64,000 bases of DNA from Diabrotica undecimpunctata. Taxonomy: Eukaryota > Arthropoda > Insecta > Coleoptera > Chrysomelidae. Each line of letters starts with the position of its first letter. Position 1 is the first letter of the stretch. This document shows positions 2,504 through 62,227 of this stretch, in pieces. The notes beneath the pieces are model-generated. The model was not told the DNA's origin. It did not search any database and was given only the letters and a program-made list of their open reading frames with translations. Both the position numbers and the translations under genes were made by a program. The stretch spans positions 117,344,049-117,408,048 of the forward strand of contig NC_092808.1 of assembly GCF_040954645.1 (NCBI RefSeq), read 5' to 3'.

Positions 2504-5500
2504 CTGCAATTGTGATTTTGCTTGGCCCGTCGTTCGCCAGACGTAATTGGCGTAAGTGTGTGCAACCGGAGTTATCCAAACCTCCCGTAAGCGGCCTTCA
2601 GTTTTATTTGCGTTTGGGTGAACGTCGTGTTTCATCCTTACCACATAAAATCATCCTAGTACAGACCTCCTCGTTGGTAGAGCTGGGAATCCATATTCGT
2701 TGGATCAGAAATACTAGCACTTTTTAGAGCAAGCACCCTAATTCGGCGAATAGTGATTGCTAATTGTATAGGGTGTATCCGATTGGTAGTGTGCGCCATA
2801 TTCGAGCTTTTGTCGGTCCCTTTAGGATCCTTAAGTCAGCGCACCAGGGCAGTTACTAACCAGTCGGATTTTTCGAACTCCTTTAAGACTGTACACCCTT
2901 CCAGTTTCCTGGAAGCCTTAGTTTTTAGAGTAATATTAGTATCTTAACGTAGATCCCAAATTATCTGTGGTGGTCATCTGCGTTGTGGTACTAACTTCGC
3001 CACGCAGGCAGGTATGGATACTCACATACGAAGGCTACGCTGCCGAGGACCCAGACGAGATGATGACAACATCTGCGGCATTTGTGAGCGCGCATTTAAG
3101 TCCTGAACTGGAGTGCGTCAACACATGAGCCGCGCTCATCCTGATGCGTACAACAGGGAGCTCGAGCGGAAGTACGAGAATCCCGGTAGGCTGGTAAGAT
3201 TCACCGACGAGGATCTCACCCGGATGGGGCAAGAGGAATTCCGGTACGAGGGCCGGTTCATTCTGAAGTATTTGATGAAAATCTTTCCTGATAATACTAA
3301 AGAAAAGATCGGGCTCGGGCTAAGCCAGAATACAAGGAGTTCCTCGAAAGTCTTAAGGAGGAAGAGCGACGTAGGAATCGGTCTCCGAGTATATCACCGC
3401 AGAGTTTGTCACTGCGAGTGCCGGGAAGCGAAAACAGCAACCAAAACCACTCAAGAATTCGAATTACTTTCATCAAGATCGCCTACAGATGACGAACCAA
3501 TTTCAGATCAGAAGGAACCGCCACTGATCAGCCATGCTGTAACAGAAGCGGAAATCCTCGGGGCCTTACAAACCATCAAATCTCAAGCAGCAGGTCCTGA
3601 TTTCATTAAGATCCGAGAGCTGCGTAAGGTACCTGTTCAGAAATTGGTTCTAGTCTATAATACCATGCTCCAGTTTGGTGTTACTCCTGAGGTATTGAAG
3701 GATTGCAGGACCGCTTTAATACCGAAGGGTGGCGATCCACTGGAGGTAGGTAATTGGCATCCGATAACCACATCATCAGTAATGATCAGGGTGTTGCATC
3801 GTCTGCTAGGGAAGAGGCTTGCGGTGCTAGATTTCCACGAGCTTCAGAGAGGCTTTCGGCAGGTAGATGGCGTTCTATTGAACAACCTAACGCTTCAGAC
3901 GGCAATCAAAGAACGAAGAAGAGGCCTTCGTCCATACAATATTATATCCATTGATCTACGCAAAGCTTTCGACACGGTCTCACAACGATCTATAGAACGG
4001 GCAATGAATCGTTCGGGTTAGATGCTACATTTAAGCGGTATGTGGTGGACTCGTACCTGAATTGTCGTACGAGGGTCGCTGCCGGGAACAAGTACACATC
4101 GAACATCAAGATGAGTAGAGGCGTCAAACGGGGAGATCCCTTGTCGTCCTACCTCTTCAACATGGTGGTCGATGAGCTGGTTGGATACCTTGGCCGAAGG
4201 TATAATGCTCTAGGACAGACCAGGGTAGCCTTCAACGAGCTGCAGACACAGCTCGATCGTATTAATCGAGCGGGGCTTAAACCAGCACAAAAGCTGCTGG
4301 TACTAAAACCGTACTTGCTACCGAAGTATATCGACATTAGCAGAGTCCAACCATCAGCATGAAGACGTTGAAGGGCTTTAACAGGTCTGTGCGTATAGCC
4401 GTTCGGAAGTTTCTGTCCCTCAATCGTACGTGCGCCGATGCTTACATCCACGCTCCCACAAAAGAGGGTGGCCTGGGCGTCATGGTTATGGCCATGCACG
4501 TCCCGGCTATCATGAGAAGGAGACTGACTAAACTTATCAGCTCAGCGACTGTACGACGTCGTTAGCCCTCAATCTACCATACATGTCACGTCTCTGGGAG
4601 AAAATACTTAAATGGACCAGAACATTTTCGGGCAATTCAGCATCGATCGCAAGTGGATTGAGCCAAAAACTTGAGGACAGCTATTACGGAAACGGACTTC
4701 GCCAGGGCTTTTCACATTCAGAAAGCTCAGCCTGGATAAGCAATCCACTGCCCTACTGGTCGGGGAGAGATTTTATCAAGGCAATCCATCTGCGAGGAAA
4801 TCTTCTACCAAAGAGAGGCATCCCTTCAAATCCACCACATGAAAGGAGGTGCCAAAAGGGATCCAAACGTAACGAGAGCCTTAGTCAAATTTTGTAAAAG
4901 TGCCTCGCAGCAGATTGGCACTGAATCAAGAGACATGATCAGCTCGTTACGTACCTACGAAGAGCAGTGAAAAAGAAAGGGTGGATTTGCGAGGTTGAGC
5001 CGCGAATTAGATACGCCGATGGGACTCTGAAGATACATGACCTGGTCGCGCAACAGGATGGGCGGGTAATTGTCGTGGACGTTGCCATCAGCTGGAAGGG
5101 TCCTGAACCCCTAAGTACAGCCGCCGCCAATAAAACGGCGCTGTACACAGAGCCTCGGTTCCTTCAGACCATGCAGACCCGATATAAAGGGAAAACCATT
5201 TGCATGGCACCTTTAATCGTTGGAGCTCGAGGAACATGGTGTCAGTCGAATTCTCGTATCATGGGAATTTTAAACCTTTCTAGGTTTGACGTCCGCAATT
5301 TTATCACAAAGTCAATTCAAGGTAGTATCCATATTCATAGTCATTTTATGAGGTCCTAAAATAAATGACTTATGAGAATTTCACTTCGAGTATATATTCC
5401 GGCTTCTTTCCTATCGTGGGGTCTACGTTCGTCTAGTTAGGGTTTTATCTATTGACTAGCGTAGATGTTTGTGTCATCCTTTTATGTTATGTGAATGACC

Positions 5501-31663: not shown

Positions 31664-32944
31664 TTACAAATCCAAATCAGATTCAGAAGATGAACTTTCA
31701 GAACCAAGATTTATAATAACTGGCTCGATCATTTTATCAGTAATATTGTCCAGCTTCCACATTTTTTCCTCTTCTTTAATAGTGTGATTTACTGCCTTTT
31801 CCCAGTTTTCAGGTTTTACATTATTTACGGCCTCCAAAAACAACTGTTTAACATCATGAATTTTAAAAGTGGTATTTTTTCTTGAAACTTCACTCTTTAT
31901 CTGTGCCCATACCAGTTCAATCGGGTTTAATTCACAATGATATGGTGGGGATCTAAGTACTGTCATTCCACGATTTTTGGCAATTTCATCAATTTCGTAT
32001 TTTTTAAATTTTTCTTTATGAAGGGCACACAACGAATAAAGTTCCTTTCTTATAGATCCGGGATGGTACGTAATATTTTTTGAACTCAGCCAATTCTGCA
32101 AGTCTTTTTTTAACCACTTGGTTGTGGGCAGTCCTTCTATAAGTCTGGAGTGATAACTTGCATTATCCATTACTATTACACAGTTCTTAGGAAGAAGATC
32201 TATCATTTGTTATCTATCATGTGTAACAAAACCGTCTGAACTGCCAATGTGTACTATTATCAGCCTGCGTCCCTTTCCTGATGGTGGGTTTAAACCAGTA
32301 GATAAGTTATTTACAAAAGCGTGCCTTTGACTTGTAACAGTTTCATCCTGCCAAAATTTATTTGGTGTATGACCCTCGTTGATCCATGTTTCATCAAGAT
32401 AAAATATTTTTCTTTTTTGGTTTCTCATTTCCTTTATGGTTCTTAGAAAATGTCTTCTCCATATGACAATATCGCTTCTTTCTAATTAAATAGACTTTCT
32501 GGGATTCTTTTTCTCCGCTGGGAAATAGCGGAAGCCTATTTCTTTTAAAAGTTTCCATAACGTACTTCGACTCATTTCTGAGTAATCCTTATCATCTCGA
32601 ACTGAGACAAGAACTTTATCCAATGTTGGAAATTCTTGTCTAAAGAAGAATTCATGCACTTTCCGTCGAAGTCCTTCTTTAAAATGATATTCTATTTGAA
32701 ATTTTGGTTTCCCTGGAGCATTACGTGGCATTTGAAAACTACCACATTTCTCTTCTTTAATAACTCTGTAAATCGTAGATTTCCCAACACCAAGTGTACT
32801 GCTAACTAACTCAACGGTCTCATCAACACTTTCACATAAACGTTTGTCTGTAAATGATTTAAAACAATTAAATATTAATGTTTTTTCATTAACTGTTAGA
32901 GGACCAATTTTTCGGCGTTTACACGGCACTTCCAAATTTTCCAT
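31664..32944 (-). pseudogene. DD82E (Sailor-like) IS630/Tc1-superfamily transposase, nearly full length
   Basis: The minus strand starts MENLEVPCKRRKIGPLTVNE, then a helix-turn-helix (LGVGKSTIYRVIKEEKCG) and a second DNA-binding part (LSVRDDKDYSEMSRSTLWKL region). A stop follows at about 32,483. The catalytic domain has first Asp in KIFYLDETWINEGHT, second Asp in CVIVMDNASYHS (at 32,167-32,165) and Glu in YHCELNPIELVWAQIK. I count exactly 82 residues between the second Asp and the Glu, the DD82E spacing reported for the Sailor family of IS630/Tc1/mariner. A second stop at about 32,207 coincides with a deletion: the stretch between SSDGFV and the LLPKN segment is shorter than in the relative at 20-22 kb. 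The C-terminus is acidic (GSESSSSESDLDL). Two stops and a deletion make it inactive. Confidence 0.85.
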
Positions 32945-38220: not shown

Positions 38221-40444
38221 GGGGACGGCGGGGTAATGACGTCACTTTAAGAGATCATCATTTTTTGTGACTTAATTTTGATATGAAATAAATATGTAAC
38301 TATGTTAGCGATCTAAGAACTAAGTTTTTAACTTAAATTAGTTTTCAGAAATTTTTCATTCGCCTTGATTAAGCGACAATAAACGCAACACTTTTTGTGT
38401 AACGTGACGGCATTGCCCCAGGCCTAGGGGATAATGGCGCCATCTACTGAATTGAAATGATGGATAAGGCGTCTCTATAAAACATGTTCTAAGCAAATAT
38501 CTTTATTGAAATTTTATTTGGAAACATAAAAAAATAACAGTATAATGAATGATAAATGAAAGCATAACCTAAAAAAACCTACTATTCTATTCACAAAAGT
38601 CACAAACATAATTTTTGGCACTGTCTTTTCCACTGCATTGAGAATGATCCTATTTCGAGCAAAGTGTACAGCGATACCACAGTTCAGTGTTTTCCAACCA
38701 ACATTTCTCCTCATCGGCAAACACAGTGGGTAGGGAGATATCATCGTTTGAAACATCATCACAAAGTTTGTCGTCATCACAATCTTCTGACGATGTTTCA
38801 TCAAAATCGAATTTTGGTCTGATAGTTTTCTTCATTTTCTTTGTTTTTTTATTCTTATAAAGCTCGTCTTCAGATATAAACGTCCTTCTGTTTTGTTTAA
38901 ATTTTTTTCCAATATTTTTGTTATTTTCGCAATCTGTAAAATTTCTTTTCTCTGCTTTCGCTTTTTGCTTCAACTCCCTTTTTTCTTTAGCATCTTGCAG
39001 GATATCTTTTATTGGTGTCGAAGTCAGGATAATAGAATGTTGCTTTCTATCCTGATCTTTTTGTTTAGGATCGGTCCTGTTAGTTGGCATTGGTGAAATG
39101 TCGAGAATGCTTTTTGAAAAATCTATTTTTCCTGACGATGTCCCCGGTTGACTACGATTAATAATCTCGATAGCAGTAGCAGGACTTTCAGGAGGATTTT
39201 CATTAATAGATGCCTCATTAGTAGAGGTATCATTGAGTTTTTTAGAATTTTCCTCCTTGTCCTCAACAATTATTTGCTCTCTATCGGAGCAATATCGTAT
39301 GGAGTGATTTTTTGATAAACATTTGTTTTCATAAAATTATCACGCCCCTTATTGAAAGCATTCTTAAGAGGTCCGTAGAAAGATACATCTAAGGGCTGAA
39401 GTCTGTGTGAGGAATGGGGTGGAAGCGACACAACGTGAATGTGGTTTGAACGGCAAAAGTCGTAATATGGCAAAGAAATATGGATTCCATGATTATCCAT
39501 TAACAGAAGGAGAGGGTCCTCTTCACTTGACTTAGTGGTTCTCTGGAAATGTTTCAGGCAATCTAAAAATAAATCTTCGTTGGACCACCCATTGTGTGAA
39601 CATCTATAAATGGCTCCAGGAGGTCCTCCTCGCTGCAACAAAGGTGACATCCGTTTCCTTGGATAAATAAACATTGGGGGCGTATACATTTCTGAAACGC
39701 TCATGGCACACACTACAGTGATATTCTTGCCACGCTCCCAACTCGTAACTCTTCCCACTTGGTTCTGTCCTCTTGGTGCAAGAATTTTTCCCGGTTTTTG
39801 TACTGTGGAAATTCCAGTTTCGTCCATATTATGGATACGGTTCGGTGGAAAGTTATACTTAGTCATTACAGTGTCAAAATTTTTGTAAATCAAACCAACT
39901 TCGTCTTTATTAAATGCTTTGATCCTGTTCAAGCTAGTGGCTTCCGGTTTTCTTAAACTAATTTTATGCCTGCTGATAAACCCATTTAACCAATCTATCC
40001 CGGCCAACTTGATCTCTTTGCTAAAGTTGTGTTTGATTTGATGTTTTTCAGCCAATTCGAAAGCCAGTCGCCTCAGTTTATTTGTAGTGATGCCATAAAA
40101 TAGTTTTGATATGCTAACCACATGCTCTGATAAGTTTTGTTCTTGCTCTACAGAAAAAACGCATTTCGGACCCAATCTCGGCTTACTACCATCGTTTGCC
40201 TTTAGCCTATCCCTTAATGTTGTTCGGGGTATGCCAAACATTGTAGCTGCTTTTTTTTTGCGAGACACCATTTTGGCGAACTGCTTCAATAGCATTTTTG
40301 AGGTTTTCCTCCTTCCACATAGTCTTTTCTGTTGTTTTTTTACGTGATCGTACCATCTAAAAATCACAAAAAAAATGCGTTGTTAACCTTTTATTTCAAT
40401 GAGAAAATACGGGGCAGTACCGTCATGGTGGCATTACCCCGAAG
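38221..40444 (-). mobile_element. pogo-type DNA transposon with PHD tail, copy 2 (near full length)
   Basis: The left end follows TA (38,219-38,220) with GGGGACGGCGGGGTAATG. The right end in reverse complement reads CTTCGGGGTAATGCC next to TA (40,445-40,446). The shared core GGGGTAATG is the clearest part of the terminal repeat. The left 600 bases are nearly identical to copy 1 at 15,185. TA flanks are the pogo/Tc1-superfamily target duplication. About 2.2 kb, one minus-strand transposase gene. Confidence 0.8.
38600..40356 (-). pseudogene. pogo/Tigger (jerky-like) transposase with C-terminal PHD finger
   Basis: ATG 40,356 begins [20 protein letters not shown], but an A-run at about 40,252-40,260 shifts the frame, after which coding is open to 39,270. 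A psq-type helix-turn-helix ([20 protein letters not shown]) is followed by a CENP-B-like second DNA-binding part ([20 protein letters not shown]) and the DDE_1 catalytic core: [50 protein letters not shown]. The last two Asp are 35 residues apart (DD35D). Relative to copy 1, about 115 bases are deleted after ITPYDIA (about 39,290). The acidic linker, Lys-rich region and PHD finger follow in broken frames. The PHD has lost its first Cys pair (CLIC to CWLE). The catalytic triad is intact. Confidence 0.86.
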
Positions 40445-44276: not shown

Positions 44277-45758
44277 CATCATCATCATCAATCAGCCCTG
44301 AGTTGTCTATTGTTGAACATAGACCTCCTCTAGACTTTTCCATCTGCTTCTGTTCTGCGCCTCTGCTATCCAATTGGTCACGATTCTTTTGAGGTCGTCG
44401 GTCCATCGCGTTGGGGGTCTTCCTCGGCTTCGCTTGTCAGCCCGTGGTCTCCACTCAAGCAATTTTTTTGTCCAACTGTCGTCTTTCATTCTTGCAATAT
44501 GTCCTGCCCATCTCCATTTTTGCATTGTAATATGTTCGATAATGTCTTCCACTCCGGTTCGTCTACGAACTTCCTCATTTCTTATTCTATTTCTTAAGCT
44601 TATTCCAAGCATTGATCTCTCCATCTTTCGTTGTGTCCTTCTCAATTTTTCGGCTGATGTTTTTGTGAGAGTTAAGGTTTCTGCTCCGTATGTGAGGACT
44701 GGTAGAACGCACTGGTTAAAAGCTTTTCTTTTTAAATGGATCGGTATATTTGTTTTAAATACGTCTCTCATTTTTCCGAATGCAGCCCAACCCAGACTTA
44801 TTCTTCTGAGTAGCTCGCATGTTTGGTTATCTCGCGTTAACCTTATTTCGTGACCCAAATACACATATTTTTCCACAAGTTCTATGGGCGACTTTTCGAT
44901 TTCTATTAGCTTATTGGGGACGAGATTGGTCATCATTTTTGTTTTTCCATAGTTTATTTTTAAACCGACTTTCTGGGTTACTTGCTGTAGTTGTTGTAGC
45001 ATAACTCTGGCTTCTCCTAAGTTGTCTGTTATGAGAACAATATCATCGGCATATCTGAGATGATTGAATACCCTTTGATTCCCAATCTAGCCGTTTAAAT
45101 GCGTACTCCATAACTGTTATAAATAGTTTTGGCGACAAGGTATCTCCCTGCCGCACCCCTCTGCCAATTTTTATCTTGTCAGTCATGCAATGGAGGTTAA
45201 CGGTTGTTGTCGCATTTTCGTATATATTTCGAATAATATTTGCATACCTGTGATCTATTCTGCATTCTGATAGTGCTTTTAAGATAGCAACTGTTTCGAC
45301 CGTGTCAAATGCTTGGTGGAAGTCGACAAAGATAAGAGCAAGGGGTCTGTTATATTCGATAGACTTTTCAACTAGAGTTTTAAGGCATTGCAAATGGTCG
45401 TTTGTTCCGTGTCCCGCTCGAAATCCTGCCTGTTCTTCTGATTGATAGAAATCGAGTTTTGCTTCTAATCTGTTTGTCAGTATTCGAGTAAAGAGCTTGT
45501 ATAGGTGGTTAAGCAAACTAATTGGCCTATAGTTTTCGAGATCTGATTTATCCCCTTTTTTGTGAAGGAGGATTGTAACCGAATTCTTCCATTTACTTGG
45601 AATGTTTTCACTATGCAGACATAGATTAAAAAATGTTTTGATTCGGGACATCAAAAGTGGACCTCCTAGTTTAATTGTCTCAATGACTACACCATCTTCC
45701 CCTGGAGCTCTATTATTTTTCATATTTTTGAGGGCATGTTGAATTTTCGTATTGAGGG
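44277..45758 (-). mobile_element. 5'-truncated LINE (RTE-like) with 12-bp target-site duplication
   Basis: CAAAGGAAAGTT occurs exactly at 44,265-44,276 and 45,759-45,770. Minus-strand coding covers RT: NNRAPGEDGVVIETIKLGGP, SEEQAGFRAGHGTNDHLQCL, ALIFVDFHQAFDTVETVAIL, GRGVRQGDTLSPKLFITVME. A frameshift at about 45,050 falls just before the YADDIVLI active site. The tail is YGAETLTLTKTSAEKLRRTQ, RKMERSMLGISLRNRIRNEE, MQKWRWAGHIARMKDDSW and GRPPTRWTDD. The 3' end is an ATGATG repeat tail. The insertion appears fairly recent: the duplication is perfect and there is essentially one frame break. Confidence 0.92.
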
Positions 45759-47904: not shown

Positions 47905-49120
47905 TTACAAACAACCAATTCGTAGACAAAACTGAAGATAAGAAATACCTAATACATAATAAAATGTGCTGATTTCGTGCGAAAAGTCATGTCTTGTACA
48001 TTGAATGAGCAATAATGTGTGGTCGATAATTCTAACAGCAGACTTTTCCCTGATATTCGTCGAAGTATTTTCATCTCTATTGTTTCTAATGGTTTTAGAT
48101 GTGTCAGGTCTTTTCTCCGCCGTGTATGTTAATATAGGTCTAATTGCTGCTTTATAGATTCTTGTTTTTGTGTTTTGTCTTAGGTGTTTGTTCTTCCATA
48201 TTATGCCATTAAGAGATCCCACCGCTTTACTTACTTTTAAGCTTTGTTGTCGTACTTCTTCTTCAACATCTGTCTAACTAGTTATATCTATTCCCAGATA
48301 TCTAAACCTTGCTTCCTGCTTTATTATTTTCCCATCAATTTCGATTTTACATCGTAGTGGGTATTTAGATAATGTTATACATTTGTTTTTTTTTCTGCTG
48401 ATATTATCATATTGTATTTCTTGGCTGTTGTATTTAAGATGTGTGTTAATCTTTAGAGCTCGTCTTCTGTCTCGGCGATTAATGCGGCGTCGTCTGCATA
48501 AAATAATATTTGGATTTCTTTGTTCCCCATTCTGTAACCATGATCTTTACGCATGCTATACCCATTCTGTAACCATGACCTTTACTGCTTGTATTATTTC
48601 GTCCATTATTATATTAAGTAAAGAGAAGTGGGCTTAACGAGTCACCCTGTCTGACACCGCTTTGTACTGGTATACACTGTGTTAGTTTTCCATTTATCTT
48701 TGCCTGCATTCGATTATGGAAGTAGATGTTTTCGATGGTTTGTATAATATTGATTGGTATGTTTCTTTTATACAGTAGGTCTAAGACGTCTTCGACTTGA
48801 ATGCGATCGAAAACCTTTGTCAGGTCTATAAAACATAGATATGCTGGTTTATTGTAGGTACTCGATGGCCTTTTCTGCGATTTGTCTTAGTACAAATACG
48901 GCGTCTACGCAGGATCTTCCGGATCTGAATCCTTGTTGTTGATCTGATAAAGTTGTTACTTTATTGATTTTGTTGGTTAGGACTTTTGTGGTAAGCTTAA
49001 GTGCAATGTTCAGTAAATTTATACCTCTATAATTGTTGGGATCTTCTTTATCTTCTTTCTTGAACATTGGTATCATTATGCTGTTTCTCCATGCATGTGG
49101 TTTCTTGAAGTAGTTTCAAG
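47905..49120 (-). pseudogene. LINE fragment (RTE-like), RT to thumb
   Basis: The minus strand reads MIPMFKKEDKEDPNNYRGIN, LLNIALKLTTKVLTNKINKV, QQGFRSGRSCVDAVFVLRQI, then decayed frames covering the conserved RT aspartate (ISMFYRPDKGF in place of LCFIDLTKAF) and tail parts MGSLNGIIWKNKHLRQNTKT and RIYKAAIRPILTYTAEKR. Stops and frameshifts break it. The 5' end meets the ribozyme-bearing repeat at about 49,120-49,186. Confidence 0.78.
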
Positions 49121-49185
49121 GGAAAAACCAGTAACTAAATTTGTACAGACAAAGAGAATCCGGGCTGAGAAATGTGAAAATATTT

Positions 49186-49866
49186 AAAATCGGTAAGATA
49201 GTTTCGAAACAAATTCAGATTTCTGCTTTAATCTGAACCTTCTACAAATGCAAGGTATAACAGACGTTGATATAGATGTTAATAGAGACATGGGGAATCT
49301 AAAATTTGCATTCCACGACATGTCTATCAACTAAGCAGAAATCCTTAACGAATTTGTTTCTTGTACTCATATAGAGTAGATCCGAATAAAATGAAAAAGA
49401 CAGCAAAGATTTGATTTCACGTACAAAGCGTCTATGTATCTGTTGATACGTATTTCGACTTAATAAGTCTCATCAGAACAGTTATTCATAGCCGTTCTCA
49501 ACGTGAAAAATATTCTTCTCTGTCTTTTAAGAAGCAACAATAAAATGGCTTCGTTATGGACGCAATAGCGACATCTGATAGAAAAATCGATAAGATAGTT
49601 TCGAAACAAATTCAGATTTCTGCTTTAATCTGAACCTTCTACAAATGCAAGGTATAACAGACGTTGATAAAGATGTTAATAGAGACATGGGGAATCTAAA
49701 ATTTGCATTCCACGACATGTCTATCAACTAAGCAGAAATCCTTAACGAATTTGTTTCTTGTACTCATACAGAGTAGATCCGAAGTTCTAGTTAAGTCGAA
49801 ATACGTATCAACAGATACATAGACGCTTTGTACGTGAAATCAAATCTTTGCTGTCTTTTTCACGTG
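49186..49866. repeat. 397-bp-period tandem repeat carrying a hammerhead ribozyme, with a partial inverted copy
   Basis: Segment A (49,186-49,386) is repeated almost perfectly as A' (49,583-49,783), an offset of 397 bases. Between them lies B (49,387-49,582), which holds a complete minus-strand hammerhead ribozyme. After A' comes a 71-base inverted copy of part of B (about 49,791-49,862 versus 49,392-49,462), effectively identical. Order A-B-A'-inverted B. Direct plus inverted repetition with a hammerhead is how Penelope-type pseudo-LTRs and retrozyme repeats look. No protein is encoded. It separates two LINE fragments. Confidence 0.85.
49430..49496 (-). ncRNA. Hammerhead self-cleaving ribozyme (type I, minimal stem III)
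   Basis: On the minus strand, core coordinates 49,481 to 49,440. Reading 5' to 3': CTGTT (stem I), CTGATGA (conserved core), GACTT-ATT-AAGTC (stem II with 3-base loop), GAA (core), ATACGTAT (very short self-complementary stem III holding A15.1 and U16.1), C (C17, predicted cleavage after it), AACAG (stem I partner of CTGTT). Further out CTATG and CATAG extend stem I beyond an internal loop, which makes it a type I layout with room for the usual loop-loop contact. Every core base matches the hammerhead consensus. Minimal stem III hammerheads usually act as dimers, and the family is known from Penelope-like elements and metazoan retrozymes. Confidence 0.93.
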
Positions 49867-49874
49867 AAAATATT

Positions 49875-50395
49875 TCTTTATGAATGAGAACTTTATGCAA
49901 ATGAAAAATTAAGCGACGAACCGGAGTACAAAATGGAAGAAAGATATATTGCTAAAGAAACAGAAGTAATAGTAAGAATGAAGACTTTAAAAAACGATTG
50001 CCAGGAACTGATAAAATACTGAACGAACTCTTAAAATATGCTCCAGGAACAAAATTTTAGACAGAACGAAGATACCAATGGACTGTCATACAAGTATGTA
50101 TTATAATTCCAATTCTTAAGAAAGGTTAAAGAACATATCCTGACAACTACAAAGGAATAACTCTCTTAAATGCAACAATGAAGCTATTCAGAAGCCTGCT
50201 CAAGAACAATTTGGAATCACGAATAGACATCTGAAAAGAACAATTTTTTAGAAAGGATACGGCGGACGCAATATTCATTATGAAACAATTGGAAAAACAG
50301 TCGATAGAATACAACAAGCCAGCTTATCTATGCTTTGTGGATCTAACAAAAGCATTTGATGGGGTCAAACTTACTTACATACAATATTGAGGGAA
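49875..50395 (+). pseudogene. LINE reverse transcriptase fragment
   Basis: Reads PDNYKGITLLNATMKLFRSL, LKNNLESRID, KDTADAIFIMKQLEKQSIEY and NKPAYLCFVDLTKAFDGVKL with the first RT aspartate (VDLTKAFD). Several stops and frame changes. Truncated before YADD. Confidence 0.78.
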
Positions 50396-54764: not shown

Positions 54765-56180
54765 ATGAGCGTCACAGGGGGGGGCGGCCCCCCCAACACA
54801 GGGCTAGAATGCCAAGATCAGATGGATAGTGGTGATAATTTTATTAATAATGCGACCAGTAATACCAATAACCTTAAAAAAGAGCCAGTTTTTTATTCAC
54901 AAAACGATAATGGGCCTTTTTTGGTATATGTGGAATCCACTGAAAAAGTGGGTTTCAATATTGGTAAATTTAACAATATTAAAATTGCTAGAGACATTTG
55001 CATTCAAAACCTAACTGATATTAAAAAAATTAATAACAAAGGCTTAAATAGAATCTCAGTAGAATTTGTTAACTTTCAAGCTGCAAATAATTTTGTAAAA
55101 AATAAAACTCTTCTTGATAAAGGCTATAAAATATTTATACCATTCAATTTTGTAACTTGTAAGGGATTAGTTAGGCAAATTGATGTCGAATTAGGAGAGA
55201 AAGAACTGTTAGAGTGCTGTAAAACAGACAGCTCAGCAGAAATTCTTCAAGTTAAGAGACTTAATCGTAAAATAGTTAAAAATAATGAAACTACATATGA
55301 ACCTACTGGATCGGTTCTCTTTACATTTAAAGGAGTTTGTCTCCCTAAATCCATAAATGTATATAGATTGGAAAGACCTGTTTCTGTATATATTTCACCA
55401 GTAACTCAGTGTTTTAGATGTTTAAGGTATGGCCATACACGTACAAATTGTAAAGGCAAGGAGAGGTGCTTTACCTGTGCTGAAGAAAAAAAATCGGACG
55501 GGGAGGCTCACTCTTCTTGTGAAATTAAATGTTTTTATTGTAAAAACCCCCATAAATCAACCGATAAAACCTGTCCCGAGTATACAAGACAAAAAAATAT
55601 CAAAGAGCTCATGTCTTTTGAAAATATAACCTTCTATGATGCTAGCGAAATAGTTAAAAAAAATTATTTGACACGTGATGAATTTGTATATCGCCCCTCC
55701 GAATTCCCTATCATTAAAAACTTTAATAGAACTGAAAAAACTCATGATAATAAAGATAACCTGATTCAACCTTCACAAAGACGTACACATCATGTAAGAA
55801 CCGACCCTATCAAAAGATCTTTTCAACAAGTTGTGGCTGAAAACAATAAAAAAAAAAGAATAATTCACAAAGGCTATGATAAAAAGGCTCATAATGAAAA
55901 TTTACTATTTCCCAACTCAAGATCTCAAAATGAAAACAACTCACCAAATTTCTCAAAAAAACTTGAAAACAATATAAATACACAGTTGCCTACTACTAGT
56001 GCAGTTCATACGTATAATTCACAAGAATCTCCTTCATCATATCCAGATGAAGTTAGATGTATTATTAATGCAATCTGGAATACTTCAGAAAATAATAAAA
56101 GAGTAATTAAAAACATACTCTTCAGTCAAAACGTTAATATGAATATAGACCCCGGTTCCCAATCGGACTCAGAGTCCTAA
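54765..56180 (+). CDS. ORF1: I-clade LINE ORF1 protein (Gag-like, zinc knuckles)
   Basis: 471 residues from ATG 54,765. The N-terminus is glycine/proline rich (MSVTGGGGPPNTGLE), encoded by a G8 run facing a C7 run. The middle (residues about 45-210) resembles the RNA-binding module upstream of knuckles in LINE ORF1 proteins (FVTCKGLVRQIDVELGEKEL; VYRLERPVSVYISPV). Three C-rich knuckles follow: CFRCLRYGHTRTNC (about 216-229), CFTCAEEKKSDGEAHSSC (about 235-252) and CFYCKNPHKSTDKTC (about 256-270). The C-terminal 200 residues are polar and low complexity, with a basic stretch (NNKKKRIIHKGYDKK). ORF1 proteins bind the element RNA to form the ribonucleoprotein. It overlaps the ORF2 open frame by 43 bases. 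Confidence 0.92.
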   Translation: MSVTGGGGPPNTGLECQDQMDSGDNFINNATSNTNNLKKEPVFYSQNDNGPFLVYVESTEKVGFNIGKFNNIKIARDICIQNLTDIKKINNKGLNRISVEFVNFQAANNFVKNKTLLDKGYKIFIPFNFVTCKGLVRQIDVELGEKELLECCKTDSSAEILQVKRLNRKIVKNNETTYEPTGSVLFTFKGVCLPKSINVYRLERPVSVYISPVTQCFRCLRYGHTRTNCKGKERCFTCAEEKKSDGEAHSSCEIKCFYCKNPHKSTDKTCPEYTRQKNIKELMSFENITFYDASEIVKKNYLTRDEFVYRPSEFPIIKNFNRTEKTHDNKDNLIQPSQRRTHHVRTDPIKRSFQQVVAENNKKKRIIHKGYDKKAHNENLLFPNSRSQNENNSPNFSKKLENNINTQLPTTSAVHTYNSQESPSSYPDEVRCIINAIWNTSENNKRVIKNILFSQNVNMNIDPGSQSDSES

Positions 56181-59100
56181 ACAACCTTCTTTTCTTTTCA
56201 ACTAGGTCAGATACAATTAAGTTAAAGATAATTTTTTGGAATCTAAGAAGCATAAATTCAAACAGGGGTAATTTAATTAGCTTAATTTACAACGAAAACC
56301 CTGATATTTTTTTAATAAATGAGTCTTGGCTAAAGGCCAATGACAATTTTAGGCTCAATTCATATAACATAGTTAGGCAGGATAGAGATGATGGGTATGG
56401 TGGGATAGTAACGTGCATTAGAAATAATATAATATTTAAGAAAATTAAATCTTTTTCTTCAGAACATATTCAATATATAATAATAGAAATAGGTAATCTA
56501 CAAGTAATTAATTTTTATTGCAACTCACATATGCATATAAATAACAATATTTTAAATGATCTTATTTCCTTTAATCCTAAAAACATTATAATTATGGGAG
56601 ATTTTAACTCTCATCATCCCTTATGGGATAAAGCTACACCCAACAAAGGAGGTAGAATAATTCATGATTTCCTATTTGATAATGATCTTGTGATTATGAA
56701 CGATGGTTCACCAACACTATTTCAATTATCAACGGCAATACCAAGTGCAGTAGATTTGACTATGGTAAGTGGGAATCTAGCTATACAGGCTAATTGGGAA
56801 ACTATTAAAGATTGTGGTAACAGTGACCACTTTCCTGTACGTCTTTTACTTAATGATAATGGCAATTGTGAGGTATTCAACAACATGACTAGTCCTTATA
56901 AAATTAGAAACTTTAAAAAAGCTGACTGGGAAGCGTACCATAATAAAGTTTTGATGTACCTTCAAGATTTAGATTATAACTTAAGTTATGATCAACTAAT
57001 GTATATTATTAACACAGTAGCTGATCAAGTAATTCCGTTTAAACAGGCCGGTATACATATTAAAAGGGGTAATGCCTGGTGGGATAATGATTGTACATCC
57101 TGGGTTAAGGAAAGGAAAAAAGCCATAGCAAATTTTAATAATGTTCCATCTATGGAAAATTATATATTAGCAAAAAAAAACATTGCATTAACTAAAAAAA
57201 AATTAAATAATAAAAAAAAAGAAAAGTTTAGGCTTTTTTGTGAAACTTTAAATAGGAACTCTAGCATGACTTATGTTTGGAACAAGATTAAGAAATTCAA
57301 TAATAATAACTTCAAAACAGGAAGATTTAATCTTACTATTCCAGATAATCTTAAAATATCTATTTTAAATAAAATGTCAATCATAAATATAGATCCAAAT
57401 TTTGTTCTTGACAATGTAGATGAAAATTTAAAGCCCTTTTCCATAAATGAATTAAACCTGGCCTTAAATAAAAAGAAATCATCTGCCCCTGGTATGGATG
57501 ATATATCTTATGAAATGTTTCAATTTTTACCTTTCAAAGCTAAACAAATTCTTATTAATAGTTATAATAAAATTTTAATGGGTGGAGAAATACCAGCCGT
57601 ATGGAAAACATTTAATATTATTAGTTTTTTAAAACCAAATAGGGATCCGACAAATCCAGAAAATTATAGACCAATTGTCCTGTCTTCATGTGGAGCCAAA
57701 ATTCTAGAAATAATGATCAAGAATCGATTAGACTGGCAATTGGAACATAATTTAAAATTTTCAAATAATCAGACTGGATTTCGTAAAGGAAGAGGTATAT
57801 ATGACAACATAACATTCATCACATCTTACATTAACCTTGCATTTCAATCCTCTGAGTCAGTCATCGTAATTTTTTTAGACATAAAAGCTGCATACGATAA
57901 TGTTGACATATATAAACTCTATAGTAAACTCAAAAACTTAGAAGTGCCTATCCGAATGTGTAACGTAATTCTCAATCTTCTGACAGAACGATCACTATAT
58001 TGTAGGGGTAATAACGGCTCCTTCCTGGGTCCTGTACCAACAACCTCGGGTATACCACAGGGCTCCCCTCTGAGTACTATTTTATTCAATATTTACTTAA
58101 GGGATATTTTTGATTTAAATTTGGGAGAAGCATCTATCATAGGGTACGCTGATGATTTGGCAGTTATGATCAGAGGAAAAAGTGTAGCAGCCATGGTAAA
58201 TAATATCAATAATGCTTTAAAGCACATAAATGCACACCTTCGTGAACACAACCTGTCACTTTCCATGGATAAATGTGAGGCAGTATGGTTCACTAGAGGG
58301 AGGAAACATACCATCCCACCGCCCGTACATATTAATAATGCAATCATTGCCTTTAAAAAAGAGGTTAAATATTTGGGTATTATACTGCAAGAAAACATGA
58401 AATGGTCACCACACATTACTAACATTACAAGTAAAGCAAAAAAATCACTAAATGTATTAAGAGCACTGTGTAGGGTATGGTGGGGTGCAGATCCAAACAC
58501 ACTTTTGATCGCCTTCTCTGCTCTAGTCCAATCACATCTTGATTTTGGATCAATGTTTCTTAGACCATGTTCTAAGGCCGCTCTCAGTAAATTGGATGTG
58601 GTGTTTTATGAGGGATTGCGTATATGTATGGGATGTATGCGTTCCACACCCAGGGCTGCTCTTTTAGCAGAAGCATCTATATTAGATCTGGAACATAGAA
58701 GAAAACTACTGGTCCTTAAATTAATTTCAAAATTCTTAGTTGTAACAAATCATCCAACTATTCAATTTATCAACAACTTTCTATTAAAAATAATCCATAG
58801 ACCGGAGTATTGGAATAAAGACAAAATACCATACCTAGTGGAAGCACTTCAACAGTATAGGCCCTATTTAAAGTTAATATATAGAGGTTCAAATTTTCCA
58901 TGTTACGAAATTGATTTTCATATACTCAATAAACCTTTAAAGTCTTTTAACTGTAATTGTAAAAAAGGAGACATTATGTCCAGAATTAATTTTGAGGCCA
59001 AAACTAATAGTCTAAAATCTCAGTATACTTTCATTTTTTCTGATGCGTCAAAGAGGGACAACAGAGTTGGTTTTGGTATATTCATTCCATCCCTAAATTA

Positions 59101-59893
59101 TAAATTTTCGTCACGTCTTCCCAACCATTTAAGTATTTACAAAGCAGAAATAATTGCCATACATGATGCAGTAAAAACTGCCATTAATAAAAAAATTAAA
59201 AATGTGATAATTTTCTCAGATTCACAGGGGGCTATAACAAAACTCTGTAATCCTGCTTTTGCAACAAATTCTGAATATTGGGTTCTTACGACAAAAAGGC
59301 TAATTGCTGCATCTAACATGAATGGTTATAATATCCAATTATCCTGGATACCAGGTCACTCAGGTATACCTGGGAATTCAGAGGCAGATAATTTGGCCAA
59401 AATTGGAACAGATCTTAATATTCCCAGAAAAATGGTATATGACATAAAAGACATTTTAAATTTCTTAAAACAGGATATTTTAAACATTTTTAAAGATAAA
59501 TGGAGAATCTTAGTCTCATCCAGACATCGTGGGTATGCTAGAGTTCAATCAACATTCACCGATAAGACATGGTATGGCAATTTAAATTATAAAGATCGGA
59601 GACACATCACAACTATAATTAGAATGCGTACAGGTCATTGCCTGACTAATGCCCATCTTTTCAAAATTAATATAAAAGATGACCCTGCCTGTGAATGCGG
59701 CATGATAGAAAACCTGAATCACATATTTTTCGAGTGCCCTATTAACTATATTCCTAATTTGGACTTATATAAGTACTTTGTATCAAAAAAGAAAATATCA
59801 CCATTATCCATGACTGACCTTCTATCCTCTCCGGAAGATGAAACTATAGAGATAATCATGCGTTTCATTAACATTAATAAAATCAAACTCTGA
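56138..59893 (+). CDS. ORF2: I-clade LINE ORF2: APE endonuclease, reverse transcriptase, RNase H
   Basis: The frame is open from 56,138 to the stop at 59,893 (about 1,250 codons), but the first ATG is at 56,531, already inside the endonuclease domain. Endonuclease: IIFWNLRSINSNRGN, PDIFLINESWLK with catalytic Glu, IIIMGDFNSHHPLWD, IPSAVDLTM, NSDHFPV with catalytic Asp-His. RT: VIVIFLDIKAAYDNVDIYKL, SGIPQGSPLSTILFNIYLRD and IIGYADDLAVMIRG (active-site YADD at about 58,147). Thumb: VKYLGIILQENMKWSPHI. RNase H: FIFSDASKRD, YKAEIIAIHDA, IFSDSQGAI, SWIPGHSGIPGNSEADNLAK, with all four acidic residues. C-terminal zinc motif CECGMIENLNHIFFECP. The enzyme nicks target DNA and reverse-transcribes the element RNA at the nick. 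How translation starts is unclear. Confidence 0.93.
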   Translation, partial: YEYRPRFPIGLRVLNNLLFFSTRSDTIKLKIIFWNLRSINSNRGNLISLIYNENPDIFLINESWLKANDNFRLNSYNIVRQDRDDGYGGIVTCIRNNIIFKKIKSFSSEHIQYIIIEIGNLQVINFYCNSHMHINNNILNDLISFNPKNIIIMGDFNSHHPLWDKATPNKGGRIIHDFLFDNDLVIMNDGSPTLFQLSTAIPSAVDLTMVSGNLAIQANWETIKDCGNSDHFPVRLLLNDNGNCEVFNNMTSPYKIRNFKKADWEAYHNKVLMYLQDLDYNLSYDQLMYIINTVADQVIPFKQAGIHIKRGNAWWDNDCTSWVKERKKAIANFNNVPSMENYILAKKNIALTKKKLNNKKKEKFRLFCETLNRNSSMTYVWNKIKKFNNNNFKTGRFNLTIPDNLKISILNKMSIINIDPNFVLDNVDENLKPFSINELNLALNKKKSSAPGMDDISYEMFQFLPFKAKQILINSYNKILMGGEIPAVWKTFNIISFLKPNRDPTNPENYRPIVLSSCGAKILEIMIKNRLDWQLEHNLKFSNNQTGFRKGRGIYDNITFITSYINLAFQSSESVIVIFLDIKAAYDNVDIYKLYSKLKNLEVPIRMCNVILNLLTERSLYCRGNNGSFLGPVPTTSGIPQGSPLSTILFNIYLRDIFDLNLGEASIIGYADDLAVMIRGKSVAAMVNNINNALKHINAHLREHNLSLSMDKCEAVWFTRGRKHTIPPPVHINNAIIAFKKEVKYLGIILQENMKWSPHITNITSKAKKSLNVLRALCRVWWGADPNTLLIAFSALVQSHLDFGSMFLRPCSKAALSKLDVVFYEGLRICMGCMRSTPRAALLAEASILDLEHRRKLLVLKLISKFLVVTNHPTIQFINNFLLKIIHRPEYWNKDKIPYLVEALQQYRPYLKLIYRGSNFPCYEIDFHILNKPLKSFNCNCKKGDIMSRINFEAKTNSLKSQYTFIFSDASKRDNRVGFGIFIPSLNYKFSSRLPNHLSIYKAEIIAIHDAVKTAINKKIKNVIIFSDSQGAITKLCNPAFATNSEYWVLTTKRLIAASNMNGYNIQLSWIPGHSGIPGNSEADNLAKIGTDLNIPRKMVYDIKDILNFLKQDILNIFKDKWRILVSSRHRGYARVQSTFTDKTWYGNLNYKDRRHITTIIRMRTGHCLTNAHLFKINIKDDPACECGMIENLNHIFFECPINYIPNLDLYKYFVSKKKISPLSMTDLLSSPEDETIEIIMRFININKIKL

Positions 59894-60920: not shown

Positions 60921-60976
60921 GAACATAAATTAGACTTATAATAATAATACAAGTGAATATAAAATAAATTGTGAAA

Positions 60977-62227
60977 ATGGCTACGATTTATGAGCTGACA
61001 GTGACTAATTTAAGAAGACATCTCGAAGACAGAGAATTAGCTTCTACCGGAAAAAAGGCTGAGTTAGTCCAACGACTAAAGAACGCTTTGCTAGAAGAAG
61101 GACTAGATCCAGAGACTTATATATTTGAAGATGCTGTCCTCTCGTCGATTTCGAAAGTTTCTTCTGATGTAGCCAAGGTTTCTGGTGATGTAGCCAAAGT
61201 TTCCGGCGACATCGCTTCGTTGGAAGACAAAGTTTCTAACGAGATTTCTTCGCTGGAAAGCAAAGTCTCTGCTAACATCTCTTCGGAAATCTCTAAAGTC
61301 ACTTCTGAGATGTCTGCCCTGGACGATAGAATATCTTCATTAAAAAACCAAGTTGCTGCCGATATGTTAGCCTTCGAAGAAAAGATATGGAAAGAGATGG
61401 AAAAGAAGATGGAGGAAACAGGGACAGCAGAGAGAGGTAACAATCCGATTACAGTGGAGATAAAAGAAGACGAGACGAAATTTAAGTTGGAGACACGGCC
61501 GAAATTTGAAGGAAGTGGAGGTTCTATTCATGTTAAAGTCCCAACTTTCGACGGAAAATCATCATGGAACAACTACATGAAACAGTTCGAATCAGCCGCA
61601 AGAGCAAATGGATGGTCTGAAAAAGAAAAGGCTGTAAACCTGACTATCGCCCTTCGAGGAGATGCCTTAGATGTGCTTCAGACCATAGCCGTAGAGGAGA
61701 CCGATGATTTCGAACAACTGAAGAAGAGGTTAAATATGCGATATGGCCACGAACATTTGGAGCATGTATATCAGTCACAGCTTAAAAATCGTAGACAGAA
61801 GAAAGATGAGGCTCTTCAAGAATATGAGGTAGATATTGCCAGATTAGTACGATATGCTTATCCAACAGCTCCCGAAGACATGATGGAAAAATTGGCCGTT
61901 CAAACGTTTATTGATGGTCTTCGTGATCATGAAATGCAGAGAACACTGCGATTAGCTCGTCACAAGACGCTGGTTGATGTCCTATCCGCCGCCCTCGAAT
62001 ACGAGTCAGCTACGCAGGCCTCTGGCGGGTACAGTAAAGTTAGGACTGTAAAAGAGGAAGGAGATGAAGATAAACTTGACCAGCTCGTTAATATGATGAA
62101 AAGCATGACATACAAGAAAACGAAGACCATCAGATGCTGGAATTGTGGCAAAATAGGACACGTACGAAGCTCCTGTAAGCACCCTAGGTACGACGCAAAT
62201 CAAGAAACTCACCATCAGGAAAACTAG
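60977..62227 (+). CDS. gag: Element B Gag with N-terminal SAP domain and zinc knuckle
   Basis: 416 residues from ATG 60,977 (MATIYELTV); a GTG codon two positions upstream is not needed. Residues about 5-40 (LTVTNLRRHLEDRELASTGK, KAELVQRLKNAL) match the SAP helix-extension-helix motif, a DNA/chromatin-binding domain. A coiled coil follows, built from repeated heptad-like units (VSSDVAKVSGDVAKVSGDIA and similar, about 60-150). The Gag core is VKVPTFDGKSSWNNYMKQFE … VNLTIALRGDALDVLQT … FIDGLRDHEMQRTLRLARHK. The zinc knuckle CWNCGKIGHVRSSC is near the C-terminus. Gag assembles the particle and packages RNA. Gag ends at TAG 62,225-62,227 inside the overlapping pol frame. Confidence 0.95.
   Translation: MATIYELTVTNLRRHLEDRELASTGKKAELVQRLKNALLEEGLDPETYIFEDAVLSSISKVSSDVAKVSGDVAKVSGDIASLEDKVSNEISSLESKVSANISSEISKVTSEMSALDDRISSLKNQVAADMLAFEEKIWKEMEKKMEETGTAERGNNPITVEIKEDETKFKLETRPKFEGSGGSIHVKVPTFDGKSSWNNYMKQFESAARANGWSEKEKAVNLTIALRGDALDVLQTIAVEETDDFEQLKKRLNMRYGHEHLEHVYQSQLKNRRQKKDEALQEYEVDIARLVRYAYPTAPEDMMEKLAVQTFIDGLRDHEMQRTLRLARHKTLVDVLSAALEYESATQASGGYSKVRTVKEEGDEDKLDQLVNMMKSMTYKKTKTIRCWNCGKIGHVRSSCKHPRYDANQETHHQEN

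Follow-up and report, generated by a model that had tools for sequence, protein, structure and literature searches.

Metazoan non-LTR retrozymes are described as tandem units of a few hundred nucleotides, spread over thousands of copies, in which every complete unit carries a type I hammerhead ribozyme and which show target duplications longer than 4 bp and no reverse transcriptase (RT) of their own (PMC7229834). Which enzyme mobilizes them, and whether the hammerhead-derived circles are the template, are left open both in that study from 2020 and in a review from 2024 (PMC11722881), the Discussion of the former and the latter placing the moving enzyme between LINEs and Penelope-like elements. 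Penelope-like elements, for their part, carry a hammerhead in their terminal repeats and insert into A+T-rich targets with short duplications, with head-to-head inverted ends and two alternative 3' ends, of which one bears a tail (PMC3846280, PMC11167929). In rotifers, their copies are mostly head-to-head, with duplications of 8–10 bp and, at one of the inverted ends, a 31-bp tail that may be absent (PMC3846280). Hammerhead repeats of about 330–350 nt are also found in amphibians (axolotl and newt), with a weak palindromic helix III that is expected to favour dimers, and axolotl ribozymes combining a weak helix III with a palindromic loop indeed perform better as dimers (PMC7229834). The element described here, from the beetle Diabrotica undecimpunctata, shares all of the above features of metazoan retrozymes, the ends, targets and terminal hammerhead of Penelope-like elements, and the weak palindromic helix III of the amphibian repeats, to which its unit may be likened in size, their sequence being different.

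The ribozyme lies on the minus strand at 49430–49496 of the window, that is, of the 64,000 nucleotides analyzed here. Both the sequence itself and a descriptor search confirm the order of the core elements given by the original prediction, and every core base is present. Read along the minus strand, these are an outer helix of stem I (CTATG, 49491–49487, with CATAG, 49436–49432), an inner stem I (CTGTT, 49481–49477, with AACAG, 49444–49440), the CTGATGA box (49476–49470), the stem II hairpin GACTT-ATT-AAGTC (49469–49457), the GAA element (49456–49454), the palindrome ATACGTAT in the place of stem III (49453–49446) and C17 (49445), with cleavage predicted between 49445 and 49444. This is the type I arrangement, with CUGAUGA, GAA and H17 in order, U16.1 preceding the cleavage base and three helices round a core that opens through helix I. 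The claim of a complete, full type I hammerhead thus stands for all core bases and for helices I and II, which are clear, but has to be qualified for helix III, which is present solely as a loop-less palindrome. ATACGTAT could pair either as 2 bp closing a 4-nt loop within one molecule or as 8 bp between two molecules; if all 4 bp formed within one molecule, stem III would be left without a loop, so that a dimeric ribozyme is expected, and by analogy with the axolotl ribozymes of weak helix III and palindromic loop, the ribozyme of the window is likely to act as a dimer.

A descriptor built from all three stems matched a single site in the window (in two parsings) and none on either strand of 200 first-order Markov windows, which rules out a chance motif. 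The Rfam search that had been proposed as a check returned no family at the gathering score in the window, and thus no hammerhead model at threshold; its best sub-threshold match in 48900–50300 was the RAGATH-1 hammerhead, recovered at full length with 21.4 bits against the 56.3 required (E = 1). We treated recognition by a covariance model as an aid to detection rather than as a defining feature of hammerheads. The isolated 81-nt RNA is not predicted to fold unusually stably (z = −0.79), and its minimum-energy fold differs from the hammerhead.

The original prediction overlooked that the ribozyme is part of a separate insertion, which is two-sided and framed by a 12-bp target duplication of its own. 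The insertion spans 49186–49862 (677 bp) and is flanked by GTGAAAATATTT, found by direct sequence and repeat search at 49174–49185 on the left and at 49864–49875 on the right, the base before the latter (49863) being unassigned. Mapping to the unit divides it into a minus-strand arm of 598 nt, or 1.5 units (49186–49783), a junction filler, GTTCTAG (49784–49790), and a plus-strand arm of 72 nt (49791–49862). The minus arm, across which two 201-nt direct repeats are spaced 397 nt apart, faces its flank with what we call end B (unit position 397 at 49186). The plus arm, an exact inverse repetition of a 72-nt stretch of the unit (positions 120–191), faces the other flank with end A; it begins within the stem II hairpin, lacks CTGATGA and thus holds an incomplete ribozyme. 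In the predicted fold, the unit forms two lobes: hairpin 1 (unit positions 55–187; 49396–49528, minus strand), in which the ribozyme sits within a long imperfect stem I (inverted repeat 49395–49439/49484–49528, 73% complementary), and hairpin 2 (positions 197–391; 49192–49386, minus strand).

As excision of a 397-nt monomer needs two ribozymes in the same direction and the window copy holds one complete ribozyme, this locus cannot release a monomer; the circle of about 397 nt that had been anticipated from it cannot be made there, and the locus is a product of the element and probably no source of it. The element is non-coding, the longest frame overlapping 49186–49862 being 57 aa, and no frame with a reverse transcriptase, alone or with GIY-YIG, occurs in the window element, which is why we do not class it as a Penelope-like element.

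With regard to its surroundings, the description of the ribozyme as lying between two dead LINE fragments agrees on the left with RT pieces in broken frames, two of them matching RVT_1; on the right, the two short frames tried were without Pfam match. RT pieces of further retroelements lie at 45043–45723 and 48617–49115, both on the minus strand. On the plus strand, an open 1120-aa frame (56531–59893) with endonuclease, RT and RNase H domains corresponds to a LINE-like second ORF of intact appearance, situated within a few kb of the retrozyme copy; upstream of it lies a 471-aa frame without Pfam match (54765–56180), and a 418-aa frame at 60971–62227 has SAP, retrotransposon gag/PNMA-like and zinc-knuckle matches, as in a gag-like gene. 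Two transposase pieces are found on the minus strand, one with DDE_1 and a Tc5-type DNA-binding domain (39270–40367) and one with DDE_3 (31664–32206). The window as a whole is 65% A+T.

Searching the 1.74-Gb genome with a 781-nt query from the window yielded 1365 candidates, of which the 40 scored ones contain 244 matches; the first 30 of these matches are 92–100% identical to the query, many of them spaced by about 397 nt. A 37-nt core pattern with at most three mismatches occurs at 2341 genome sites (1148 + 1193), its reversed control at none, and a pattern with a looser stem II at 3750 (1901 + 1849; control 0); the exact pattern was absent from the viral contigs searched. With a unit spacing of 397–402 nt, the family consists, as retrozymes do, of dispersed tandem repeats within the range of about 150–450 bp, each with a type I hammerhead. 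Among the first 100 places of the looser pattern (C1, 0.3–47.1 Mb), stem II reads GACTT-ATT-AAGTC in 44, the same with loop TTT in 8, GCTTT-ATT-AAAGC in 40 and other variants in 8, and none of these 100 listed places shows a half-changed stem II. The second form, GCTTT-ATT-AAAGC, has 1046 + 979 sites genome-wide (control 0). The two large subfamilies thus differ at both partners of two adjacent stem II pairs, in support of stem II as part of a functional RNA. Thousands of copies, tandem units of 397–402 nt and this compensated stem II together support well the retrozyme or Penelope context that the original prediction had assigned to the hammerhead. The GCTTT-ATT-AAAGC subfamily is spaced by 400–402 nt and often forms longer arrays (up to 10 units in one listed cluster), examples of which, at C1:30573070-30575499 and C1:71449331-71453003, also read minus-then-plus.

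The core is intact in 142 of the 162 core-spanning units of the mapped loci. Selection on it is undetectable from conservation among copies, the core (0.987) standing no higher than the rest of the unit (0.980 overall; random site sets at least equal in 36% of draws). The 397-nt unit has a predicted folding energy of −104.7 kcal/mol (z = −4.58; none of 100 shuffles as stable), in a structure from which the active core is missing, and the circular fold has the same two hairpins as the linear one. A relative of the ribozyme part, 75% identical, is found at 4056–4258 (plus strand) of locus L036, where it stops at position 198 like an A end; it perhaps belongs to an older family.

We mapped units in 56 loci, namely the 40 scored candidates (of 1365) and 16 taken from the first exact core sites on C1. 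The window-derived query biases the first sample toward arms of at least 1.5 units, especially B arms; in the C1 sample, neighbouring places were merged and L020, already in the first sample, was omitted. Two manual edits were made, the left arm of L011 being added and a stray 30-nt match of L040 dropped. Head-to-head insertion, a behaviour of Penelope-like elements, was found in 39 of the 56 loci (32/40 and 7/16 in the two samples), in all of which the left arm is minus and the right arm plus, the 5' sides being central and the 3' sides turned toward the flanks; the order plus-then-minus was found in none of the 39. The same polarity holds for adjacent exact core sites less than 1600 bp apart (13 minus-plus, 0 plus-minus) and for clusters with both directions, which were minus-then-plus in 14/14 and 16/16 cases in two listings (8 clusters shared, 22 different ones). 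An inversion inside an existing tandem array would be expected to give tail-to-tail arrangements as well, and was rejected given the absence of the plus-then-minus order from the 39 two-sided loci and the listed clusters. The remaining 17 loci are one-sided by BLAST, including 9 of the 16 in the less biased C1 sample, and one of them, L072, carries a short inverted B end. Since the one-sided copies L047 and L065 show a 12–13-nt repeat at their borders, two-sidedness is not obligatory.

The flank-facing 3' ends cluster at two positions of the unit, A (185–205) and B (385–397 and 1–10), windows that were defined post hoc, after inspection of the ends, and that span 44 of 397 positions. They hold 71 of the 78 outer ends of the two-sided loci; the 7 loci (of 39) with one end outside them were left out of the pairing analysis. 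Every one of the 32 loci with both ends classifiable pairs one A with one B (28/28 in the first sample, 4/4 in the second), and same-site pairs, A/A or B/B, do not occur among them; under independent, equal choice of ends, such an outcome would have a chance of 2^−32 (roughly 2 in 10 billion). Two alternative 3' ends are again a Penelope-like behaviour. One-sided loci end at A in 13 of 17 cases and at B in 4. A and B sit directly 3' of predicted hairpins 1 and 2, respectively, and a poly-A tail is absent at both ends of the loci. Of 49 A ends, 12 have the sequence CATTTCA, 15 the templated CATTTTA and 22 neither. CATTTCA looks like CATTT copied twice, and locus L058 carries an AAATG repeat; we interpret both as slippage as synthesis starts. 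The latter repeat, of about 200 nt, lies at the expected A side of L058, between a 12-nt duplication candidate and the unit end, and this microsatellite possibly arose by slippage at start site A. At the right end of L044 and in L059, the unit apparently stops near position 170 instead of at A, a possible third stop or start point.

Exact target duplications of at least 7 bp flank 27 of the 32 A/B loci, none being found in the other 5, and they exceed the 4 bp of the retrozyme description throughout. Their lengths concentrate at 12 bp (thirteen loci) and 13 bp (seven loci), with one each of 7, 8, 9, 10, 11 and 14 bp and one of 26 bp in an AT repeat; 20 of the 27 are thus 12 or 13 bp long, and 24 reach at least 10 bp. 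When flanks were paired across loci as a control (992 pairs), repeats of at least 7 bp arose in 19%, of at least 10 bp in 1.9% and of at least 12 bp in 0.1%. The 24 duplications of 9–16 bp are 89% A+T. An initial search allowing mismatches had scored at least 9 in 24 of 32 two-sided loci and in none of 8 one-sided ones, and searching farther upstream afterwards revealed a 13-nt repeat at the one-sided L047. The inner junctions, for their part, are all distinct (39/39), with extra bases in 26, none in 2 and an overlap of 1–6 nt in 10, that of L011 being unresolved. These different junctions rule out that a ready-made head-to-head element was inherited.

As regards the template, eight sites selected for having two common alleles split the family into subfamilies, and we used them as haplotypes. 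Alleles differ in 18 of 982 comparisons within an arm and in 24 of 518 between opposite arms, as against 39.4% between loci. At the level of loci, 10 of 199 sites differ between arms (33 loci), versus about 39% when permuted, and the arms agree at all shared sites in 24 of 33 loci, the permuted mean being 17% and the maximum 38% (2000 permutations). Full concordance between arms is lacking in 9 of the 33, and L035 mixes two haplotypes within one arm. Moreover, arms longer than one unit run through the ribozyme cleavage point. Arms that cross the cleavage point, together with exactly one A and one B per classifiable insertion, make a single monomer circle the simplest template; homogeneous source arrays could be another route to one haplotype per locus.

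Candidates for the enzyme are present in the same genome, where 73 of the 150 scored among 6686 candidates match the GIY-YIG profile above cut-off. The three Penelope-like copies that were fetched have open frames (605, 514 and 461 aa) in which an RT domain precedes GIY-YIG, the RT match in L055 and L057 being slightly below the Pfam cut-off, and each adjoins a minimal hammerhead. Both L055 and L057 show inverted ends head-to-head, with borders blurred by AT repeats. Of the two ends of L057, one is short and the other about 35 nt longer, like the published tail asymmetry, and both ends of L055 are long. Self-alignment of the Penelope loci mostly yields AT repeats. A sequence kinship between our unit and the local Penelope copies was also sought and rejected, the matches being short (at best 26 nt, E = 4e-5, in L051 and L052).

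On this basis, we regard it as probable that Penelope-type machinery carries out two DNA-primed reverse transcriptions on a single circular monomer RNA. Transcripts of arrays of at least two units would be cut by their hammerheads and the monomer circularized, as may be deduced from the family. The circle would fold as two hairpins, with an RT start site, A or B, directly 3' of each; a Penelope-type RT/endonuclease would cut an A+T-rich target on both strands, with about 12 bp between the cuts, and each DNA 3' end would prime synthesis on that same circle, one using A, the other B. Either polymerase may circle the template more than once before the two cDNAs are joined at a variable point, and the product would consist of two arrays placed head-to-head, with end A on one border, end B on the other and a duplication of 12–13 bp around them. 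The architecture, the preferred ends, their pairing, the duplication, the unique junctions and the nearly single haplotype per locus are read from the sequence, from which the circle, the enzyme and the simultaneous priming of both strands are inferred. In its most specific form, in which one RNA circle with two RT start sites, one at the 3' base of either hairpin, is copied from both cut target ends with one polymerase per site, the process would amount to a two-primer rolling-circle reverse transcription, for which we see roughly even chances. In agreement with our model, cleavage and extension of both target strands are published for the anole Penelope protein, which cuts at A+T-rich sites and initiates internally at two sites; that it shows no strand difference in start site counts against the model (PMC11167929). 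Further points against the model are the one-sided loci, the 7 two-sided loci with an end outside the A and B windows, the 5 A/B loci without a duplication, the mixed or discordant haplotypes (L035; 9 of 33 loci) and the lack of sequence kinship between the unit and the Penelope copies.

The main rival of the circle is a homogeneous linear multimer. With the same element and the same type of enzyme, a multimer transcribed from a homogeneous array could be copied by a dimer whose subunits hold different sites, one A and one B. Tandem arrays that could be read as such multimers exist in the genome (L047, L033), multimeric retrozyme RNAs are known in axolotl (PMC7229834), and the anole protein, predicted to be a dimer, uses unprocessed RNA in vitro and inserts ribozyme mutants equally (PMC11167929). 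However, A and B would each recur many times along a multimer, so that some same-site pairs would be expected where we find none in 32, and an extra rule would be required to couple both ends; we hold this linear template to be unlikely, though worth weighing against the circle.

It is even less plausible that LINE-type machinery made the insertions by target-primed reverse transcription and ordinary twin priming, the route to inverted LINE-1 copies. LINE machinery is at hand in the window (the 1120-aa frame at 56531–59893), and duplications of 12–13 bp are compatible with LINEs. In twin priming, the inverted part is an inner 5' piece with a variable outer end, whereas 71 of our 78 outer ends fall at two sites, and neither end carries a poly-A tail; this reading, which the literature leaves undecided against Penelope (PMC7229834, PMC11722881), strikes us as improbable. 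Foldback DNA transposons, too, resemble loci of this build, in which tandem units are split between inverted halves and the target is duplicated. A foldback-like transposon or an inverted-arm satellite, with the hammerhead as a passenger devoid of RNA function, would fit a core no more conserved among copies than the rest of the unit (36% of random sets), but not junctions that differ in 39 of 39 loci and thus point to a two-sided form newly made at each insertion, nor two compensated stem II pairs between large subfamilies with no half-changed stem among the 100 listed sites, and we consider it the most improbable of these explanations.

Coming back to Penelope-type copying of a circle, we think it likely, the element and this mechanism being judged jointly, that we are dealing with a copy of a retrozyme-like element, non-coding and non-autonomous, whose unit measures 397 nt here and about 400 nt in sister copies. 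Both the ribozyme and the class of retrozymes are kinds already known. Unlike the retrozymes of PMC7229834, the present ones have their tandem arrays paired head-to-head, each locus combining the two different preferred ends; the word "inverted" is absent from the main text of that study, whose available text describes no two-sided insertions for the amphibian repeats either. In schistosomes, one satellite-like element has a possible target duplication, and "head-to-head" is absent from the corresponding text as available (PMC8490949). The differences from Penelope-like elements are of another kind: the window copy has no frame longer than 57 aa, the A/B pairing is strict in 32 loci, the two ends are about 200 nt apart in the unit versus 30–40 nt in Penelope, and the duplications are of 12–13 bp versus 8–10 bp (PMC3846280). 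A search by title and opening of the abstract, mostly outside the subscription literature, found no report of a two-sided retrozyme insertion signature. By this search, the two-sided, two-site insertion signature is new; it links an animal retrozyme to Penelope-style integration and speaks for a circle as template.

Overall, the anatomy of insertions, in which each locus shows both preferred ends once and a single haplotype, provides a genomic test that is applicable to any animal genome bearing retrozymes and that gives a prediction for purified Penelope protein acting on circular RNA. If the two-site reading of a circle were true, circles rather than linear transcripts would be the transposition intermediate of an animal retrozyme, and Penelope machinery would be its mover.
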